In this document: piece after piece, positions 1 through 6,968 of the stretch
Layout of the letters: the number at the start of each line of letters is the position of its first letter
Position numbering within the stretch: the first letter of the stretch is position 1
Source of the DNA: Candidatus Thiosymbion ectosymbiont of Catanema sp. Cochon2018
GTDB lineage: Bacteria; Pseudomonadota; Gammaproteobacteria; Chromatiales; Chromatiaceae
Length of the DNA stretch: 64,000 bases
NCBI GenBank assembly: GCA_011392765.1
Contig: WYCW01000004.1
Coordinates: 234,038-298,037, forward strand
Reading direction: 5' to 3'
Translations under genes and position numbers: made by a program
Notes under the pieces: model-generated
What the model was told of the DNA's origin: nothing
The model's input: only the letters and a program-made list of their open reading frames with translations
Database searches by the model: none

Positions 1-565
1 AAGCCAAGGAAGGCAAGCGCGCTATTTTTTTGTCGATGCTGCCCATTTCGTATTCGGACCTTTTCTCGGTGTACTGTGGTCATTTACACGCCTCTTTGTA
101 AAGGCGACCGCCGGACGGAGACGTTTTAACGTTCTCGGCGCGCTAAATGCCATCACACATGAACTGGTGTTAATCACGAATGACAGCTATATCAACGCCG
201 AAAGTGTTTGTGAATTGCTCCGAAAAATCGCATCGGTAACGCATGGAGTAGCGATTACTCTGGTGTTGGATAACGCGCGTTACCAGAGATGCAAAATCGT
301 CACCGCACTCGCCTTGAAACTCAATATCGAGCTACTTTTTCTGCCACCCTATTCACCGAACTTGAACCTCATCGAGAGAGTATGGAAGTTCGTCAAGAAA
401 GAGGTTCTCTATTCCAAGCACTATTACGACTTTGGCAGTTTTAAACGTTCAATATCGGCGTGTTTAAATCAAACACACACAACGTACAAGAAGGAGCTTG
501 ATTCGCTCCTCACGCTGAGATTCCAAGTGTTCAAGAAATGCAATATTGTGCCAATATGAAGTATA
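1..565 (+). mobile_element. IS630-family element, right part (cut by window edge)
   Basis: Positions 1-565 repeat 36524-37088 with only one base difference seen by eye (at 545), so this is the right-hand part of a second copy of the complete IS630 element at 35920-37088. The right terminal repeat ends in TATA at 565, as expected for an element that duplicates a TA target. The left part lies outside the window. It is inserted in the lipoprotein gene that runs leftward from 1452. Confidence 0.9.
2..559 (+). CDS. IS630 transposase, C-terminal catalytic part (partial)
   Basis: This is the second reading frame of an IS630 DDE transposase. The frame carries the three catalytic acidic positions: the Asp in FVDAAHF near the window start, the Asp in LDNARYQ, and the Glu in YSPNLNLIE. 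In the full copy at 36 kb this frame is reached by a shift at a run of seven T; the same T run is at 25-31 here. The 5' part (helix-turn-helix region) is outside the window. It is probably an intact recent copy because it is almost identical to the other one. Confidence 0.85.
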   Translation, partial: SQGRQARYFFVDAAHFVFGPFLGVLWSFTRLFVKATAGRRRFNVLGALNAITHELVLITNDSYINAESVCELLRKIASVTHGVAITLVLDNARYQRCKIVTALALKLNIELLFLPPYSPNLNLIERVWKFVKKEVLYSKHYYDFGSFKRSISACLNQTHTTYKKELDSLLTLRFQVFKKCNIVPI

Positions 566-1452
566 GTAGATCCAGGTCGAACTTTGTGGGTCCTGCCGGC
601 TAGCCTTATAGTGATCGTTGCTCCAGTATCATTGTCTACTTTAAAATAGCCCACTGCAGGAGGTCGCATTATGATTTTACCTACTGTACACCAATACTTA
701 CCCGTATAGGTCGATCCATTCGTTATATCGAAAGACTCATTCACTGATCCACACCTTGCCGATATTACCGCTGTGTAAGGTCCACTGGGTAACTCTATCG
801 AGAAAGATCCGGGTGCTATTGTATGTCTCGCACCGCCGACCTTTACTGTGAGCTTCGCTTCCGTGTTATTCTCTACAACAAAATTGCCCTTCTGAGGCTG
901 AATATCTTTTTGCGAAAATGTTAGAGTGTAGCTGCTCCCGGACTCGTAAACGTCTTCGCCATGCAGCCGACGCAAGTTGTTACCACAAAGACGGGTATCA
1001 ACACCAAACTCGTAGGAACCTGCCGTAATATCGAGATCCTCCGACCTGCCTGCCTCTACCCCGAATTTACGTGTGGTTGGTCCTAGGAGGTAAAAACCCA
1101 ATTTGCACTTGGTATCGTTCGTGATCGTAAGTTTCACGGGGTATTTGGGTAAACGGGGATGCGTCGCTGGGGATGTGGGGTTTGCAGGTTGGCGAGGATA
1201 TGTCGATGACGATCTAACTTTGCTCCGCCTTGCCCGCGGTGCATTGTTATGCTGGTTCTTCCGGATGTTGTCCAGCACTTTCCGCACATTTGCGGCTTCG
1301 CCAGGATGACTTTCATAAGGTATATATGGTGGGGGTACTGGGAGTGGTGGGGATACTGGGAGTACGGATGAACAGGCGGTAAGAAACAGGGTGGATGCGA
1401 TTACGATAAACAAGAATGTTATACGTTGTACGAAACGATGGATGGCACGCAT
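566..1452 (-). pseudogene. Repeat-containing lipoprotein, 3' end removed by IS630
   Basis: The N-terminus is a lipoprotein signal: basic residues, a hydrophobic stretch, then a lipobox with LTAC as cleavage site, so the mature protein should be membrane-anchored outside the cytoplasm. A Pro-rich linker follows (about residues 32-110). After it come at least three related beta-type units of about 70-75 residues, each opening like 'G-F-x-V-x-N-x-T-x-A'. The reading frame meets the end of the IS630 copy at 565, and the last 32 codons of the open frame are transposon sequence, so the native C-terminus is lost. Its ATG overlaps the stop of the SEFIR gene by one base (TAATG), pointing to translational coupling. 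No known function recognised. Confidence 0.7.
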
Positions 1453-2282
1453 TAGGGGGTTCCTATGAGTGTAGGTATGGGTTCAGGCATCCCGTTACGT
1501 GTCTTTTCAACAGTAAGGGTGCTGAGTGGTTCGTCTTGAATTGAGGTAGTATTACTGACTCGTGTCTTTTTAGTGGAAATGGGATCTGGAGGTGTGTCTT
1601 GGTCCAAAATTCCCATCTCATCCTGCGATTTGGTAATAGTATGTTGCAAATGCTCTCCACTACTATTCAGGTATCCCACAGAAAGCAAACCAAGACCAAC
1701 GAAAGATAGCGCTATCAAGGTGACCAGACGGGAGGAAACGATGGGTTGGGGCCGAAGGAATAGGGGATCGGTTGCCTGGGATGGCAGGTCCGGCGCCGGA
1801 CCGGGTGGAGGCTGCTTGTAGGGCGGGCAGTCCAGCAGTTTGCGCAGCAGGGATTTGTATCCTTCCGGTCCGTCGAGACAGAAATAATCATATCCCTGGA
1901 GCTCGAGTGGGATATGTTCCTGGTCCGAGGCATGGAAAAAGACTGGAAAGATCCGGCCGTTGTGTAGCTTTTTCGAGTAGAGCAGATTTCGGATCAGCCT
2001 GGCCTCCCAACCAACGCCCAACCCGGTAGCGGGCTGCTTCTGGTCATCGAAACCCTGGTCATCGAAACGCTGCGCATAGGTGGGCGTCACGACGCAAAGG
2101 ACAGCATCCGCCTCGATGAGCTGTCGCTTCATCCAGGTAGGCCAATCCTCCTTCGTATCCTTGTAAAAATCGAGACGGCACGCGCACCCGTCCTGCCGGA
2201 GGCTGGCGTCCAGCCTCCGCACGCGCTCGGTATGCCCGTCATTGTCGTGGCTATAACTGATGAAAACGATGGGCTTATCCAT
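1452..2282 (-). CDS. SEFIR (TIR-like) domain protein with one membrane helix
   Basis: Residues 4-140 have the SEFIR/TIR fold signature: a start of the type VFISYSHDN followed by H..RV..L...LR..G, then LDFY and a conserved W-P-x-W-M segment, ADAVLCVVTPTY and GWEARLIRNLLY. Residues about 185-208 form a single hydrophobic helix, followed by a Thr/Ser/Pro-rich tail. SEFIR domains act in signalling complexes and, in bacteria, in several anti-phage systems, some of which use NAD+. Here the domain is tethered to a membrane and coupled (TAATG) to a lipoprotein gene. It lies 12 bases downstream of a Uma2 gene on the same strand, so the three may be one operon. Domain call firm; role inferred. Confidence 0.75.
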   Translation of the reverse strand: MDKPIVFISYSHDNDGHTERVRRLDASLRQDGCACRLDFYKDTKEDWPTWMKRQLIEADAVLCVVTPTYAQRFDDQGFDDQKQPATGLGVGWEARLIRNLLYSKKLHNGRIFPVFFHASDQEHIPLELQGYDYFCLDGPEGYKSLLRKLLDCPPYKQPPPGPAPDLPSQATDPLFLRPQPIVSSRLVTLIALSFVGLGLLSVGYLNSSGEHLQHTITKSQDEMGILDQDTPPDPISTKKTRVSNTTSIQDEPLSTLTVEKTRNGMPEPIPTLIGTP

Positions 2283-2294
2283 TACGAATAGGAT

Positions 2295-2780
2295 TCAGGC
2301 AAAATTTATCTTGATTAAATTTGGAAACCGGGGAATCAGGTCACTCCGACCCAGTTCCCGGTGCCGGTCGAAGAAACGGACCTTGCCGTTCTGGCCGCAG
2401 ATCCAGAACTCCCGCGCCCCGCGGGCGAAATAGAGTCCCTTCTTCTCGTCCATCTCCTGTTCGGAGTTGGAGGGCGAAAGGATTTCGATCACGATATCCG
2501 GGGCCTCCGGGTAGGGATTGGCCCGTCGGTGACGCTTGAAGAACGCCTTTTTGGCCCAGGCCACATCGGCGACCTTGACGCCGGCACCGGTGAGCACGCT
2601 GCACTCGGAGATGGCGTAGCCCCCGGCCCCGAGCTTGGCCAGCCGTTGGACGATCAGGGCCTGAAAGAGCCCGTGTTCATTGGAAGCGGGCGTCATTTCC
2701 AGGTGGCCCCACTGGTTGGTCTCCACCTTGAAGGGGAGGTCACGGAGTTGGGGGTGGTCACAGACCTCCTGCCATTCCAT
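2295..2780 (-). CDS. Uma2 family (DUF820) PD-(D/E)XK nuclease-like protein
   Basis: 161 residues with the Uma2/DUF820 pattern: an N-terminal strand with 'HGLFQALIVQRL', then VADVAW, then 'APDIVIEILSPSNS', then 'KKGLYFARGAREFWIC'. The acidic pair (D in APD, E in VIEIL) and the following K match the PD-(D/E)XK core. The family is very abundant in repeat-rich genomes and its substrate is unknown. This copy is shorter than, and divergent from, the two 194-residue Uma2 genes at 44-45 kb. Its stop is 12 bases before the SEFIR start. Confidence 0.8.
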   Translation of the reverse strand: MEWQEVCDHPQLRDLPFKVETNQWGHLEMTPASNEHGLFQALIVQRLAKLGAGGYAISECSVLTGAGVKVADVAWAKKAFFKRHRRANPYPEAPDIVIEILSPSNSEQEMDEKKGLYFARGAREFWICGQNGKVRFFDRHRELGRSDLIPRFPNLIKINFA

Positions 2781-3129
2781 ATCGGGTTTCCCCGTTGCCG
2801 ATCACCGGATTTATAGACCGATTCTACAAGATAGGGCACATCGGTGCAGCGTAAAGGACTGCAGGGTGCGGTGAACGCCTGCCTATCGTTCGAGGGACAC
2901 CTGCCTGCACCGGTCTACTACCCCGCAGGATGGGACAGGCAGGTCGGCTGTCCCTGCATCAGGGACCCCGGTCAGATTCAGGTTTTAAATCCGCAGATTG
3001 CACAGTCAAAGAACGTGGGCATCAGCCAAGAAATTTATACGCGCTCGCCCTGCGGCGCGGTTCAGGCGAGCGGGCAGAAAATTATATTGCGGTAAAGCGA
3101 TTGCACGTCCAAAGCAAGCCTCGAATGCC
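2781..3129. other. Intergenic region with repeat fragments
   Basis: No gene supported. Around 3029-3050 is a stretch shared with 29831-29856 and 39532-39552 (the 'TTTATACGCGC' repeat). Around 2880-2950 are short CCTGC/GCAGG motifs that look like remains of palindromic repeats. Confidence 0.5.
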
Positions 3130-3859
3130 TCGGTCCTCAGAACCAGAGCATGTTGCGGAAACCAGGGAGTCCTTACGAGAGGACTATTTTGCCGACCGAC
3201 GCCCCTGGGTAGTCGCATACTCCGGTGGGAAAAATTCAACCCTCGTGCTCCATTGGTTTACGAGCTGATCCGGGAGCTTGGACCGGGGGCAAGCAAACCG
3301 ATCCATGTGGTTGCCTCCGACATACGCGTCGAGGCCCCTAATGTGGAGGACTATCTTGCGGACTGCTTGTCTCGGATCGAGAGCCATGCCAGGGCCAACG
3401 GCCTGCACGTCTACGTGCACCGGGTTCAGCCGGCACCGGAACAAGGCTTTTGGGGCAACCTGATCCGAGACCCGAAAAGAGATACTGCACTGGCTCCTGG
3501 CACTGGAGAAACGCGTCGAGCGCCGTCTGATCGACGATGCCGAAATTGCTTACATTCAGCAGCAATGGAGCAACGAGCTCGATGTCACCGAGACCGCATT
3601 GACCATCGCGCGGGAGTTCGGACGGGAGGTTGGGACCTTGACCATCACACCGGAAGACAAATCCGACGATCTGGATCTGATCGAGGAATTGGCCCCCCAC
3701 TTCGAGGTCCAGCCCATCTGGGCCACGGATCTCTACCGGCTGGTCTCGGAGCGATATGCGTCCCTGGATAGCCCAAGCCGCCGGCAACTCCGGGATGAGG
3801 TCATCAAGGTGGTCGAGAACGCTGTGCGACAGGCCGCTGGGACCGATCCGAGGTCATGA
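3130..3859 (+). pseudogene. dndC: DndC-like DNA phosphorothioation sulfurtransferase, degraded
   Basis: Pieces of one protein read across three frames. The first piece carries 'ETRESLREDYFADRRPW' and the PP-loop SGGKNS, where the family has SGGKDS. After about LHW the frame shifts by one base, and the next frame continues with 'YELIRELGP', 'KPIHVVASD' and 'YVHRVQPAPEQGFWGNLI', typical of DndC (PAPS reductase/ATP pyrophosphatase family). Much of the central part is then missing. A third frame from about 3476 carries the C-terminal 'ILHWLLALEKRVERRL' region to the stop at 3859. Known role: sulfur transfer in DNA backbone phosphorothioation. This copy has a frameshift, an internal deletion and a mutated PP-loop, so it is dead. 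Confidence 0.75.
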
Positions 3860-4000: not shown

Positions 4001-4231
4001 ATGAAAAATAGTTTACTAGAACGAGTTACGTCAGAAGAAGGAAAATGTGGGAGTCGTCCATGTATCAGAGGAAAACGAATGCGTATCAGCGATATCCTTG
4101 AATTGCTTGGAGCAGGAGCATCATTCGAGGAAATTTTGGAGGACTATACTTTTCTCGAACAAGAAGATATTTTGGCCGCTTTACAGTACGCTGCATCTCA
4201 AACAGACCATGTGGTACTCAAGGTAGCATGA
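4001..4231 (+). CDS. DUF433 antitoxin
   Basis: 76 residues with the DUF433 signature: GKCGSRPCIRGKRMRISDILELL, broken here as 'GSRPCIRGKRMRI' followed by 'LELLGAG', then 'EEILEDYTFLEQEDILAALQYA'. DUF433 proteins have a winged-helix fold and are antitoxins of DUF5615 (PIN-like) toxins. The stop overlaps the next ATG (ATGA at 4228-4231), the standard arrangement. The gene looks intact although its toxin partner is truncated. It has a lower GC content than the surrounding dnd remains, suggesting separate acquisition. Confidence 0.85.
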   Translation: MKNSLLERVTSEEGKCGSRPCIRGKRMRISDILELLGAGASFEEILEDYTFLEQEDILAALQYAASQTDHVVLKVA

Positions 4232-4390
4232 AATTTCTTGTTGATAACCAATTACCCGTGGCTCTAAGTCGATTTTTGCAATCACGAAATGTGACCGCCC
4301 TTCATGTCTTGGATGTTCAGTTAGATGAGGCAAGCGACAGAGAAATATGGCAATACGCGAAGTTGAATAATTTAACAATAATCAGTAAAT
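4228..4390 (+). pseudogene. DUF5615 PIN-like toxin, truncated
   Basis: The reading frame starts MKFLVDNQLPVALSRFL, contains the first PIN-type Asp (VD) and 'ASDREIWQYAKLNN', and reaches 'LTIISK', after which the family normally continues with a DxDF motif. From about 4390 the sequence is instead unrelated, GC-rich phosphorothioation-locus DNA. The toxin therefore lacks its second acidic centre and C-terminus. The break marks a deletion or recombination junction. Confidence 0.8.
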
Positions 4391-4402
4391 GTGTGTCTGA
4401 TC

Positions 4403-4811
4403 ATGGGCCGCAACGGCTTCGGCAAGACCAGTCTGCTCAATCGTCCTGGTCGTGGGAGAGCTGGCAGACCTGCTGTTTCAGTCCCGCGAGGTCGAAGAGC
4501 CTCTAGTCCGGCTGGCCTAACAGGCGCGGGCCGTCGGCACCCATCTGGTGTTGGCTACCCAGCGGCCCGACGCGGAGACCTTCAGCGGTCTCTTGCGCAG
4601 CAACGTGCCGGGGCGCATTACCCTCTCGGTACGCACGGCGGACGAATCCAGAATCATCCTGGACGAGACCGGCGCGGAGAAGCTGCTGGGTGCCGGCGAT
4701 ATGCTGCTGCGACCACAGGCCGGCGCTCCCGCCCGCCGTGCCCACGGGGTACTGGTGGGCAGCGACGACATCCGGCTCTGTCTGCAAACCGCCCGTGGGA
4801 GGGCCGAATGA
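4403..4811 (+). pseudogene. Fused ATPase remnants: Walker A piece plus FtsK/DptH-like C-terminus
   Basis: At 4403-4444 a short piece encodes GRNGFGKTSLLN, a Walker A motif like that of DndD-type SMC-like ATPases. It joins directly to a piece reading VLVVGELADLLF, EEPLVRLA, a TAA stop at 4525-4527, then 'QARAVGTHLVLATQRPD', 'LRSNVPGRITLSVRTADES' and 'EKLLGAGDMLL' to a stop at 4811. The second piece is the C-terminal motor region of an FtsK/HerA-like translocase. In phosphorothioation-dependent restriction loci such a protein is DptH, which fits the dndC relic upstream, but a plain FtsK-type protein is possible. The stop probably arose from a CAA codon. The end overlaps the next ATG. Confidence 0.6.
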
Positions 4812-5953
4812 GTGACATCACCGTCTATGAGTTCCAACCTTTGTGGCTGACCCTGGACCGGGTCGGGCCATTTCAGGATACACCTTACGAGATCGATTTC
4901 ACCGACGAGCAGGATCGGCCCTGCAATCTCTTTCTGCTCATGTCCGAGAACGGACGTGGGAAGACCACAGTGTTGGAGTGCATGGCCTTGTTGATGCGTC
5001 TATTCGGGGCAACGGAACCTCGGCAGTTCGGTTATGAGGATCTGGATGCGGGAGAAGGCCGGATTCAGCTCGATGTGCTGACCCGCATTCATTGGCAGGG
5101 GAGTGACCACCGCATCCTGCTGTCCTTGGTAGCCGGCAATCTCGGTGAAGAGACCTTCCTCAAGGCATGGGATACCCCGGATCTGGATCGGTTCGGGGCC
5201 CAGGAATGGCATCGCATCGGTTTCCGGCAGCAACCGGGGCTTCCGGTGGGGGGCTACTGGCGCGGCGACAATCTCGCGCAAGATTTACATTATCACCTGA
5301 TCTTTGCCAACCGGTCGGCACCGGAAGGCTTCGCGAATTCGACCCTGAGTTTGCCCACGGCCCTGTATTTCCCCGCCTATCGAGATGTTCCGTCCATCCT
5401 TGGACTCGGGGACCGACCCATTACCCAGCCGGAGCACTGGGGCTACAGCTCGGCCTTCGAGTTTGCTGCCCACAGCACCCAGTGGACCGAGTCGCTGGAC
5501 AATCTCCTCGTCTGGCTCGCCTGGTTGAGCAACGGCAGCTTCGAGGCGGCGGTCGAGACCGTCAATGGGACCGTTTTCGGAAAATCCCCGGACAAATTTC
5601 TGGTGCCCGAAATCCGCCGGGTTCCGCCGGAGGCGGTGGTCCACAGTGCCGGCCAGACCCACCGCCTGGATCGACTCTCCAGCGGCGAAAAGAACCTGGT
5701 CCAGCTGTTTCTACGGATCGGTGCCCACGGTACCCGCAATACCTGGATTCTGGTGGACGAGCTGGATGTCCATCTCCATGTTCGCTGGCAGCACAAGGCG
5801 ATCAATGCCATGAAGGCCCAGGTACGCCGACAACCCGGAACGACCGTCATTGCCGCGACCCACTCGGTCGAGATACTGGAGGCCTTTCAGGTCGACATTC
5901 GAGAGGAAGGGCTGATCAAAGGCGGTTTGATCATCGATGATAATCTGCGTTAG
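4808..5953 (+). CDS. AAA ATPase of PARIS-like pair (AriA-like)
   Basis: 381 residues. Walker A is SENGRGKTT (about residues 45-53). An ABC-type signature LSSGEKN lies near residue 287, followed by Walker B WILVDELDVHLH and the H-loop in AATHSVEIL. This is the ABC-ATPase architecture of the AAA_15/AAA_21 and OLD-like groups found in anti-phage systems. The gene is followed by a DUF4435 (TOPRIM-like) gene, the composition of PARIS (AriA-AriB). The start was chosen at the ATG overlapping the previous stop (ATGA); the longer open frame upstream is a shadow of the degraded genes. It appears intact. A 99-bp inverted-repeat element sits directly at its stop codon. Confidence 0.75.
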   Translation: MSDITVYEFQPLWLTLDRVGPFQDTPYEIDFTDEQDRPCNLFLLMSENGRGKTTVLECMALLMRLFGATEPRQFGYEDLDAGEGRIQLDVLTRIHWQGSDHRILLSLVAGNLGEETFLKAWDTPDLDRFGAQEWHRIGFRQQPGLPVGGYWRGDNLAQDLHYHLIFANRSAPEGFANSTLSLPTALYFPAYRDVPSILGLGDRPITQPEHWGYSSAFEFAAHSTQWTESLDNLLVWLAWLSNGSFEAAVETVNGTVFGKSPDKFLVPEIRRVPPEAVVHSAGQTHRLDRLSSGEKNLVQLFLRIGAHGTRNTWILVDELDVHLHVRWQHKAINAMKAQVRRQPGTTVIAATHSVEILEAFQVDIREEGLIKGGLIIDDNLR

Positions 5954-6063
5954 AGAGGGTGTCGCAAAAGTAGCGCAGGCGTTCTCGCCTGCATCGAAAA
6001 ATGCAGGCGGGGACGCCTGCGCTACGCCCCACGGATGGGCTTTTGCGACACCCTCCGTTAGAG
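5947..6063. repeat. MITE-like palindromic element with target duplication
   Basis: The element at 5956-6054 has perfect 15-base terminal inverted repeats (AGGGTGTCGCAAAAG and its complement). Inside is a second nested palindrome built on GTAGCGCAGGCG. CGTTAGAG occurs on both sides (5948-5955 and 6056-6063), which fits a target duplication of eight bases, or nine with one mismatch. The ATPase stop codon TAG lies in the left copy. Without the element the two genes would be about 25 bases apart. The same outer end sequence recurs near 62216. Confidence 0.8.
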
Positions 6064-6080
6064 GGGTGGGAGTTGGGGAC

Positions 6081-6968
6081 ATGGGTGTATTCAAAAAAGT
6101 TGAAGGCAAAGACAGGTTGGTTCTCAAACAGCGCGGCGGCGCGATTGTCTTCCTGGAGTCCGAGGAGGACTTTCAGATCATCGCAAAACGCTGGTTCTTC
6201 AACGAGGGGGAGGACATCTTGTTCAAGCCGGCCGATGCTTATGAGGCTGGGACTGGAGGTGGTGGCTGCAAGGCCGTCATTGATTTGGTCGAGGGGTGCA
6301 GGGGGGATGGCATCAAGGCATTCGGGCTGGTCGATCGCGACGCCCTTCTGAACGACCGAAATTGGTCGCTGTGGTGGGAGGATCAAGACGACGAATTCCT
6401 GGCTGCCCGTCCTTACGGTGACTCTATCCGCGTACTGCTACGCTGGGAGTTGGAAAACTATCTGTTCGATCCGGAGGCAATGGCCGATGTGGCGAATGAC
6501 GCCGCGATGACATCTACGCATACCGCCGATTCCATCGTGGAGTCCTGCCTCAAGTGTGCCGATGAGTTGAAGGATAGGACCGCGGCAACCGTTGCAGCCA
6601 GGGCTGCCAATCTCTCGCAGCCGTCAGAGGCATTCGGATGTGATCCACCATTGCATGGTTCCGCCATGACGGAAAAATTGCGGGATCATTTGTCCAAGAA
6701 GGGACATGAGAATGCAGGTCAGGCGATGACCGATGAACGTCGACGGATCGACCGCTTCGACTCGCTAACTGCCCCGGCGCGGGAGCGCTGGGAGCGCTTA
6801 GTTCGCATGTTGGATGGCAAGGCATCGCTCAAGTACCTCAGCTTCCGTACCGGCACTCGTTTCGATGAACGTCGCGGGGATCTCGCCCGTCGCATGTCCG
6901 AGAAGAAGGCCGTTCCAACCGAGATACTCGGCTATATTGAGGAGTTCAAAACCGCCGCACTGCCATGA
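6081..6968 (+). CDS. DUF4435 / TOPRIM-like effector of PARIS-like pair (AriB-like)
   Basis: 295 residues. The N-terminal half reads 'RGGAIVFLESEEDFQIIAKRW', where the E is the expected first acidic residue, then 'GGGCKAVIDLV', then 'IKAFGLVDRDALLND', then 'RWELENYLFDPEAM'. This spacing of a Glu, a D-x-D and E-N-Y-L is that of DUF4435 proteins, which have a TOPRIM-like nuclease core; in PARIS this protein (AriB) is the toxic effector released by AriA. The start at 6081 is preceded by GGAG at a good distance. The open frame extends upstream into the MITE, but those codons are transposon sequence. Intact as far as seen. The match to PARIS rests on domain pairing, not on a search. Confidence 0.7.
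   Translation: MGVFKKVEGKDRLVLKQRGGAIVFLESEEDFQIIAKRWFFNEGEDILFKPADAYEAGTGGGGCKAVIDLVEGCRGDGIKAFGLVDRDALLNDRNWSLWWEDQDDEFLAARPYGDSIRVLLRWELENYLFDPEAMADVANDAAMTSTHTADSIVESCLKCADELKDRTAATVAARAANLSQPSEAFGCDPPLHGSAMTEKLRDHLSKKGHENAGQAMTDERRRIDRFDSLTAPARERWERLVRMLDGKASLKYLSFRTGTRFDERRGDLARRMSEKKAVPTEILGYIEEFKTAALP

Follow-up and report, generated by a model that had tools for sequence, protein, structure and literature searches.

Most described TIR and SEFIR immune proteins detect threats inside the cell, and bSEFIR (PDLC03957), a single-gene SEFIR anti-phage system, is reported to act by NAD+ depletion. In Zorya, the inner-membrane complex ZorAB carries a periplasmic domain that is thought to sense envelope disturbance and to drive a cytosolic effector (PMC11890865). 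In System 4, also known as the EACC1 system (Kaur et al. 2020), the constant part consists of EACC1 and a caspase protein (PMC7159879). Here we describe a locus at the left end of a 64,000-nucleotide stretch of a Candidatus Thiosymbion contig (WYCW01000004.1; hereafter the window), in which the gene of a SEFIR protein with a predicted membrane helix overlaps the gene of a repeat lipoprotein.

The SEFIR gene (1452-2282, minus strand) encodes a protein of 276 residues that matched the Pfam SEFIR family (PF08357) at 43.4 bits (5.6e-11; gathering cut-off 23 bits) and TIR_2 at 48.3 bits. It also matched the PADLOC bSEFIR profile at 5.7e-38 over profile positions 35-200, and nothing past position 200 of the 412 profile positions was matched by this protein. 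The SEFIR domain occupies about residues 6-143 and contains a conserved Trp-Glu pair, which we take to be the place of the catalytic glutamate in TIR domains (W92 was kept in 33 and E93 in 34 of 35 aligned SEFIR sequences). Hydropathy revealed one hydrophobic transmembrane (TM) helix at residues 185-205 (window 1668-1730), as the original prediction had proposed, followed by a 71-residue tail rich in Ser and Thr that is predicted to lie outside the inner membrane; on the same hydropathy, the SEFIR domain would be in the cytosol and the tail in the periplasm. On the minus strand, transcription would pass from a Uma2-family gene (2780-2295) over a 12-base gap to the SEFIR gene (2282-1452), whose TAA stop overlaps the ATG of the lipoprotein gene (from 1452) in the sequence TAATG.

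The native part of the lipoprotein gene (564-1452, minus strand) encodes a signal sequence that, by reading, ends in TLFLTA-C27, a lipobox with its cysteine at residue 27, followed by a proline-rich linker and three related units, unit A (916-1137, residues 106-179, identified from alignments A2 and A4), unit B (688-888, residues 189-255) and the first half of unit C (565-651, residues 268-296), all on the minus strand. Unit A is 25% identical to unit B, and the two halves of unit C are 40% and 55% identical to it. AlphaFold2, with an alignment of five units, modelled unit B as a seven-strand beta sandwich with a mean pLDDT of 92.3. Its structural neighbours in VIA-align (Z 8-9) were transthyretin/carboxypeptidase-regulatory-like domains, AlgF and others, a sandwich that, as modelled, is a common fold and gives no pointer to a ligand. 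In Pfam, the lipoprotein had only two matches, CarboxypepD_reg and DUF6759, both below threshold. Its likeness to CarboxypepD_reg (PF13620) lies in the fold of unit B (Z 8.0-8.3 to carboxypeptidase D/N domains), whereas by sequence it is no member of that family (19.9 bits against a cut-off of 32.3). A sequence search of the PDB with the repeat profile gave as its best match a de novo designed protein, which was not significant (E 0.2), and Foldseek hits among viral models, some of them tail-fibre proteins, were weak (E of about 0.001 at best) and were set aside. The lipoprotein had been assigned to the outer face of the envelope, but it may face the periplasm instead.

An IS630-type element of 1,165 bp with terminal inverted repeats interrupts unit C at a TA target; its right part fills positions 1-563 of the window (plus strand), and the other 602 bp extend to the left of it. 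The genome holds nine full IS630 copies at about 100% identity, including this one, and the presence of eight other nearly identical full copies marks the insertion as recent. The other flank of the element, outside the window, still encodes the remaining 40-odd residues of unit C (TIELSEGSYKAKISTRCGSTTESLEIEEGSQYEGYYSCVVR, then a stop). The insertion agrees with the original prediction, which had also called the locus probably dead; this verdict appears too strong, as the insertion has cost only the second half of unit C and has left the SEFIR gene, unit A and unit B intact.

SEFIR relatives were present in 17 of the 210 genomes of the order, with C-terminal parts that include STAND-type, FGE, TPR, kinase and other modules (the FGE, TPR and kinase assignments were made by reading the sequences). 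The closest homologues, 65-69% identical and from the same genus, have other C-terminal modules and no lipoprotein, which makes the SEFIR module a promiscuous one. Five more SEFIR genes (L002-L006) give the window's own genome a large SEFIR repertoire; one of them (L006) reads as SEFIR-FGE, and two others (L003 and L004) contain further TIR-like stretches. The likeness of the window gene to its closest relatives stops just before the TM helix, and GC3 falls from 70% in the SEFIR part to 41% at the SEFIR/TM border, the lipoprotein gene having 45%. Because both changes fall at the same border, the TM-tail and the lipoprotein look like one acquired module, and the simplest reading of these sequences would be that this module became attached to a SEFIR domain that was already resident.

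The repeats themselves are very rare. Their profile matched the window's own genome alone among 369 genomes at class level, 210 at order level and 398 at phylum level, and viral contigs, phages and plasmids gave no match. In the order to which the Methylococcaceae genome described below belongs, one marginal match (E 0.0096) was rejected, as the protein reads as VgrG. When short peptide patterns were used to scan a collection of 84,980 species genomes, one other locus was found, on a Methylococcaceae contig (L014), where an intact gene encodes a TIR domain (TIR_2, 7.9e-10), a TM helix and units A, B and C in a single chain of 422 residues (P0004), the three units being 52% identical to those of the window lipoprotein. 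This gene is also a mosaic, with a GC3 of 33% in the TIR-TM part and 60% in the repeats, and its TIR domain occurs with many other modules; the model of the whole protein was too poor to use (pLDDT 47). A caspase gene (L014 4407-5291; Peptidase_C14, 2.1e-38) lies 170 bases upstream. The caspase has a hydrophobic, signal-like N-terminus and is possibly periplasmic. In a second genome of the same order as the Methylococcaceae contig (G662), a relic of the repeats was found beside a relic of the same caspase. The outside repeat module is thus shared by two TIR-superfamily effectors that differ from each other, being fused to one and encoded in a coupled gene next to the other. The exact SEFIR and lipoprotein pair, for which a search by the same TAATG overlap had been proposed, had no second locus in the genomes searched; the fused TIR-TM-repeat protein was found instead.

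A parallel two-gene design exists in the bacterial family of the window, in which SEFIR, TIR, a trypsin-like domain or no effector at all is followed by one or more TM helices and a CarboxypepD_reg domain, and then by a second gene for a signal-peptide protein with beta and TPR-like parts. Among the SEFIR genes checked, two overlap a downstream gene whose product is exported, the window gene and one in genome G439, both with TM helices (small numbers). In G439, SEFIR, three TM helices and CarboxypepD_reg (1.4e-07) are followed, in ATGA overlap, by a protein that has a signal peptide, a beta domain and repeats resembling TPRs. Three further loci were reached through homologues of either the membrane part or the exported part. 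G516 has TIR, TM and CarboxypepD_reg (2.6e-08), with a homologous exported protein about 220 bases on, and its TIR domain resembles, by reading, that of the Methylococcaceae protein; G527 has a trypsin-like domain (2.8e-09), TM and CarboxypepD_reg (2.1e-09), with ATGA and a homologous exported protein; G561, which belongs to the genus of the window, has three TM helices and CarboxypepD_reg with no effector domain, again with ATGA and the exported protein. The four loci lie at L103 (6246-7523 and 7520-8956), L104 (2361-3230 and the overlapping gene), L109 (2546-3730 and 108-2327) and L110 (3316-4302 and 4302-6830), the two genes overlap by ATGA in three of the four, and the coupled SEFIR, TIR and trypsin pairs are intact. 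Since the four CarboxypepD_reg domains are plainly homologous, the effector is the swapped part. The exported beta/TPR protein had no copy in the window's own genome and no match in plasmids. Homology between the window repeats and the CarboxypepD_reg domain of L031 was unsupported (hhalign probability 0.2%), and the two designs may therefore be only analogous.

These observations bear on whether the two window genes belong together at all. A shuffled SEFIR-TM gene could have come to precede a functionally unrelated lipoprotein gene, and this would fit a pair seen only once and a SEFIR domain that has other partners in its relatives, which were found in 17 of 210 genomes of the order. However, the TAATG overlap and the parallel coupled pairs speak against it, and the presence of the same three units fused behind a TIR domain and a TM helix makes an accidental pairing unlikely. 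SEFIR homologues without a lipoprotein had been named as the sign of such an accident; the closest homologues do lack one, but beyond the window the repeats were seen only on the TIR-TM protein or as a relic beside the caspase relic. It might also be argued that the lipoprotein restrains the SEFIR protein as a trans-envelope antidote, and that loss of the outer tether, not ligand binding, frees the effector. Overlapping genes would fix the ratio of both products and a fused form would keep effector and module together, but the SEFIR gene has remained open here although the insertion sequence has truncated the lipoprotein. Complete release from restraint is evidently tolerated, unless the shortened form still works, and such an antidote is very unlikely.

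The reading that we prefer is a two-part trans-envelope sensor-effector unit, formed by a SEFIR domain on an inner-membrane helix and a co-translated lipoprotein, and we give it about an even chance of being correct. The SEFIR domain would be cytosolic and held on the helix, the tail would reach into the periplasm, and the co-translated lipoprotein would carry its three beta-sandwich units, transthyretin-like in fold, on the outer side of the inner membrane. The trigger would be an envelope disturbance or a phage component acting on the lipoprotein and the tail; the SEFIR domains would then cluster and degrade NAD+, by which the cell would be halted or killed. More generally, with the coupled effector pairs included, an envelope event would be read on the outside, and the answer on the inside would be NAD+ destruction or proteolysis. 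The TAATG overlap, the conserved Trp-Glu pair, the GC3 break at the SEFIR/TM border and the defence neighbours favour such a unit; against it stand the recovery of the exact pair from one locus, where the lipoprotein is interrupted, and the parallel locus of G561, which has no effector domain. Of the sensor-effector pair originally envisaged, the functional link between a cytosolic TIR-superfamily effector and the repeats has gained support from the TIR-TM-repeat fusion and from the parallel two-gene design with swapped effectors, while topology, contact between the parts, ligand sensing, NADase activity and an anti-phage role are what we infer from these sequences. If the proposal is true, a sensor outside the inner membrane and an NADase-type effector inside it would allow a reaction at the entry step, like that of Toll-like receptors in animals.

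The neighbourhood suggests what such a unit may act against. The Uma2 gene (2295-2780, minus strand; Pfam 2.4e-18), which, as predicted, ends 12 bases before the SEFIR ATG, was absent beside the related loci read; it was rejected as a third component for this reason and is probably an unrelated neighbour. To its right, on the plus strand, lie a relic of a second DndC gene (2998-3771; PADLOC 5.5e-13), a DUF433/DUF5615 pair (4001-4506), an AAA_21 ATPase resembling PtuA/AriA (4391-5953) and an adjoining gene of 343 residues (5937-6968) that had no Pfam or PADLOC match and may be a nuclease or TOPRIM-type partner of the ATPase. On the same contig, a DndC-DndD-DndE operon (L007 254-4234), whose DndD also matches PbeC profiles, ends about 4 kb left of the window start. 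This defence island on both sides makes phages the likely threat. The same trans-envelope unit could also serve regulated cell death, an envelope-stress response or kin and colony signalling, and not chiefly anti-phage defence, as a caspase with a signal-like N-terminus adjoins the fused Methylococcaceae gene and TIR, caspase and trypsin-like domains recur in the conflict systems of multicellular bacteria (PMC7159879, PMC10907252). The island with DndCDE and a PtuA-like ATPase argues otherwise, as does the activity against phages of SEFIR systems tested elsewhere (PMC12322248), and a use of this kind seems rather unlikely.

The window pair and the parallel loci may represent a so far undescribed class of trans-envelope immune systems in gammaproteobacteria, with two genes and a swappable effector, a proposal that we hold with slightly less than even confidence. 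Its members would combine a cytosolic effector (SEFIR, TIR or trypsin-like), one or three TM helices, a beta sandwich outside and a translationally coupled partner with an exported beta domain, either lipoprotein repeats, as in the window, or beta/TPR. In the literature searched, no TIR-superfamily membrane protein was described whose coupled partner is a beta-repeat lipoprotein or an exported beta/TPR protein, which is weak evidence of novelty given thin coverage of subscription journals. By sequence, bSEFIR is the nearest named system, although the remainder of its profile is unmatched; the likeness is confined to the N-terminal SEFIR domain, and the window protein differs in having a TM helix with a short tail and an overlapping lipoprotein gene. 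In manner of working, Zorya would be the nearest by analogy, as an inner-membrane part would sense the envelope for a cytosolic effector, whereas neither a ZorA/ZorB-type motor nor a peptidoglycan-binding domain was seen in the Uma2, SEFIR and lipoprotein genes, the effector shares a polypeptide with the helix, and none of these three genes matched the Zor profiles of PADLOC. The nearest two-gene membrane conflict system is System 4, which also has two genes, a single TM helix, swappable domains and cases with outside domains (PMC7159879). No caspase domain was found by Pfam in the same three window genes, and the part outside the membrane is, in the window, a beta-sandwich lipoprotein.
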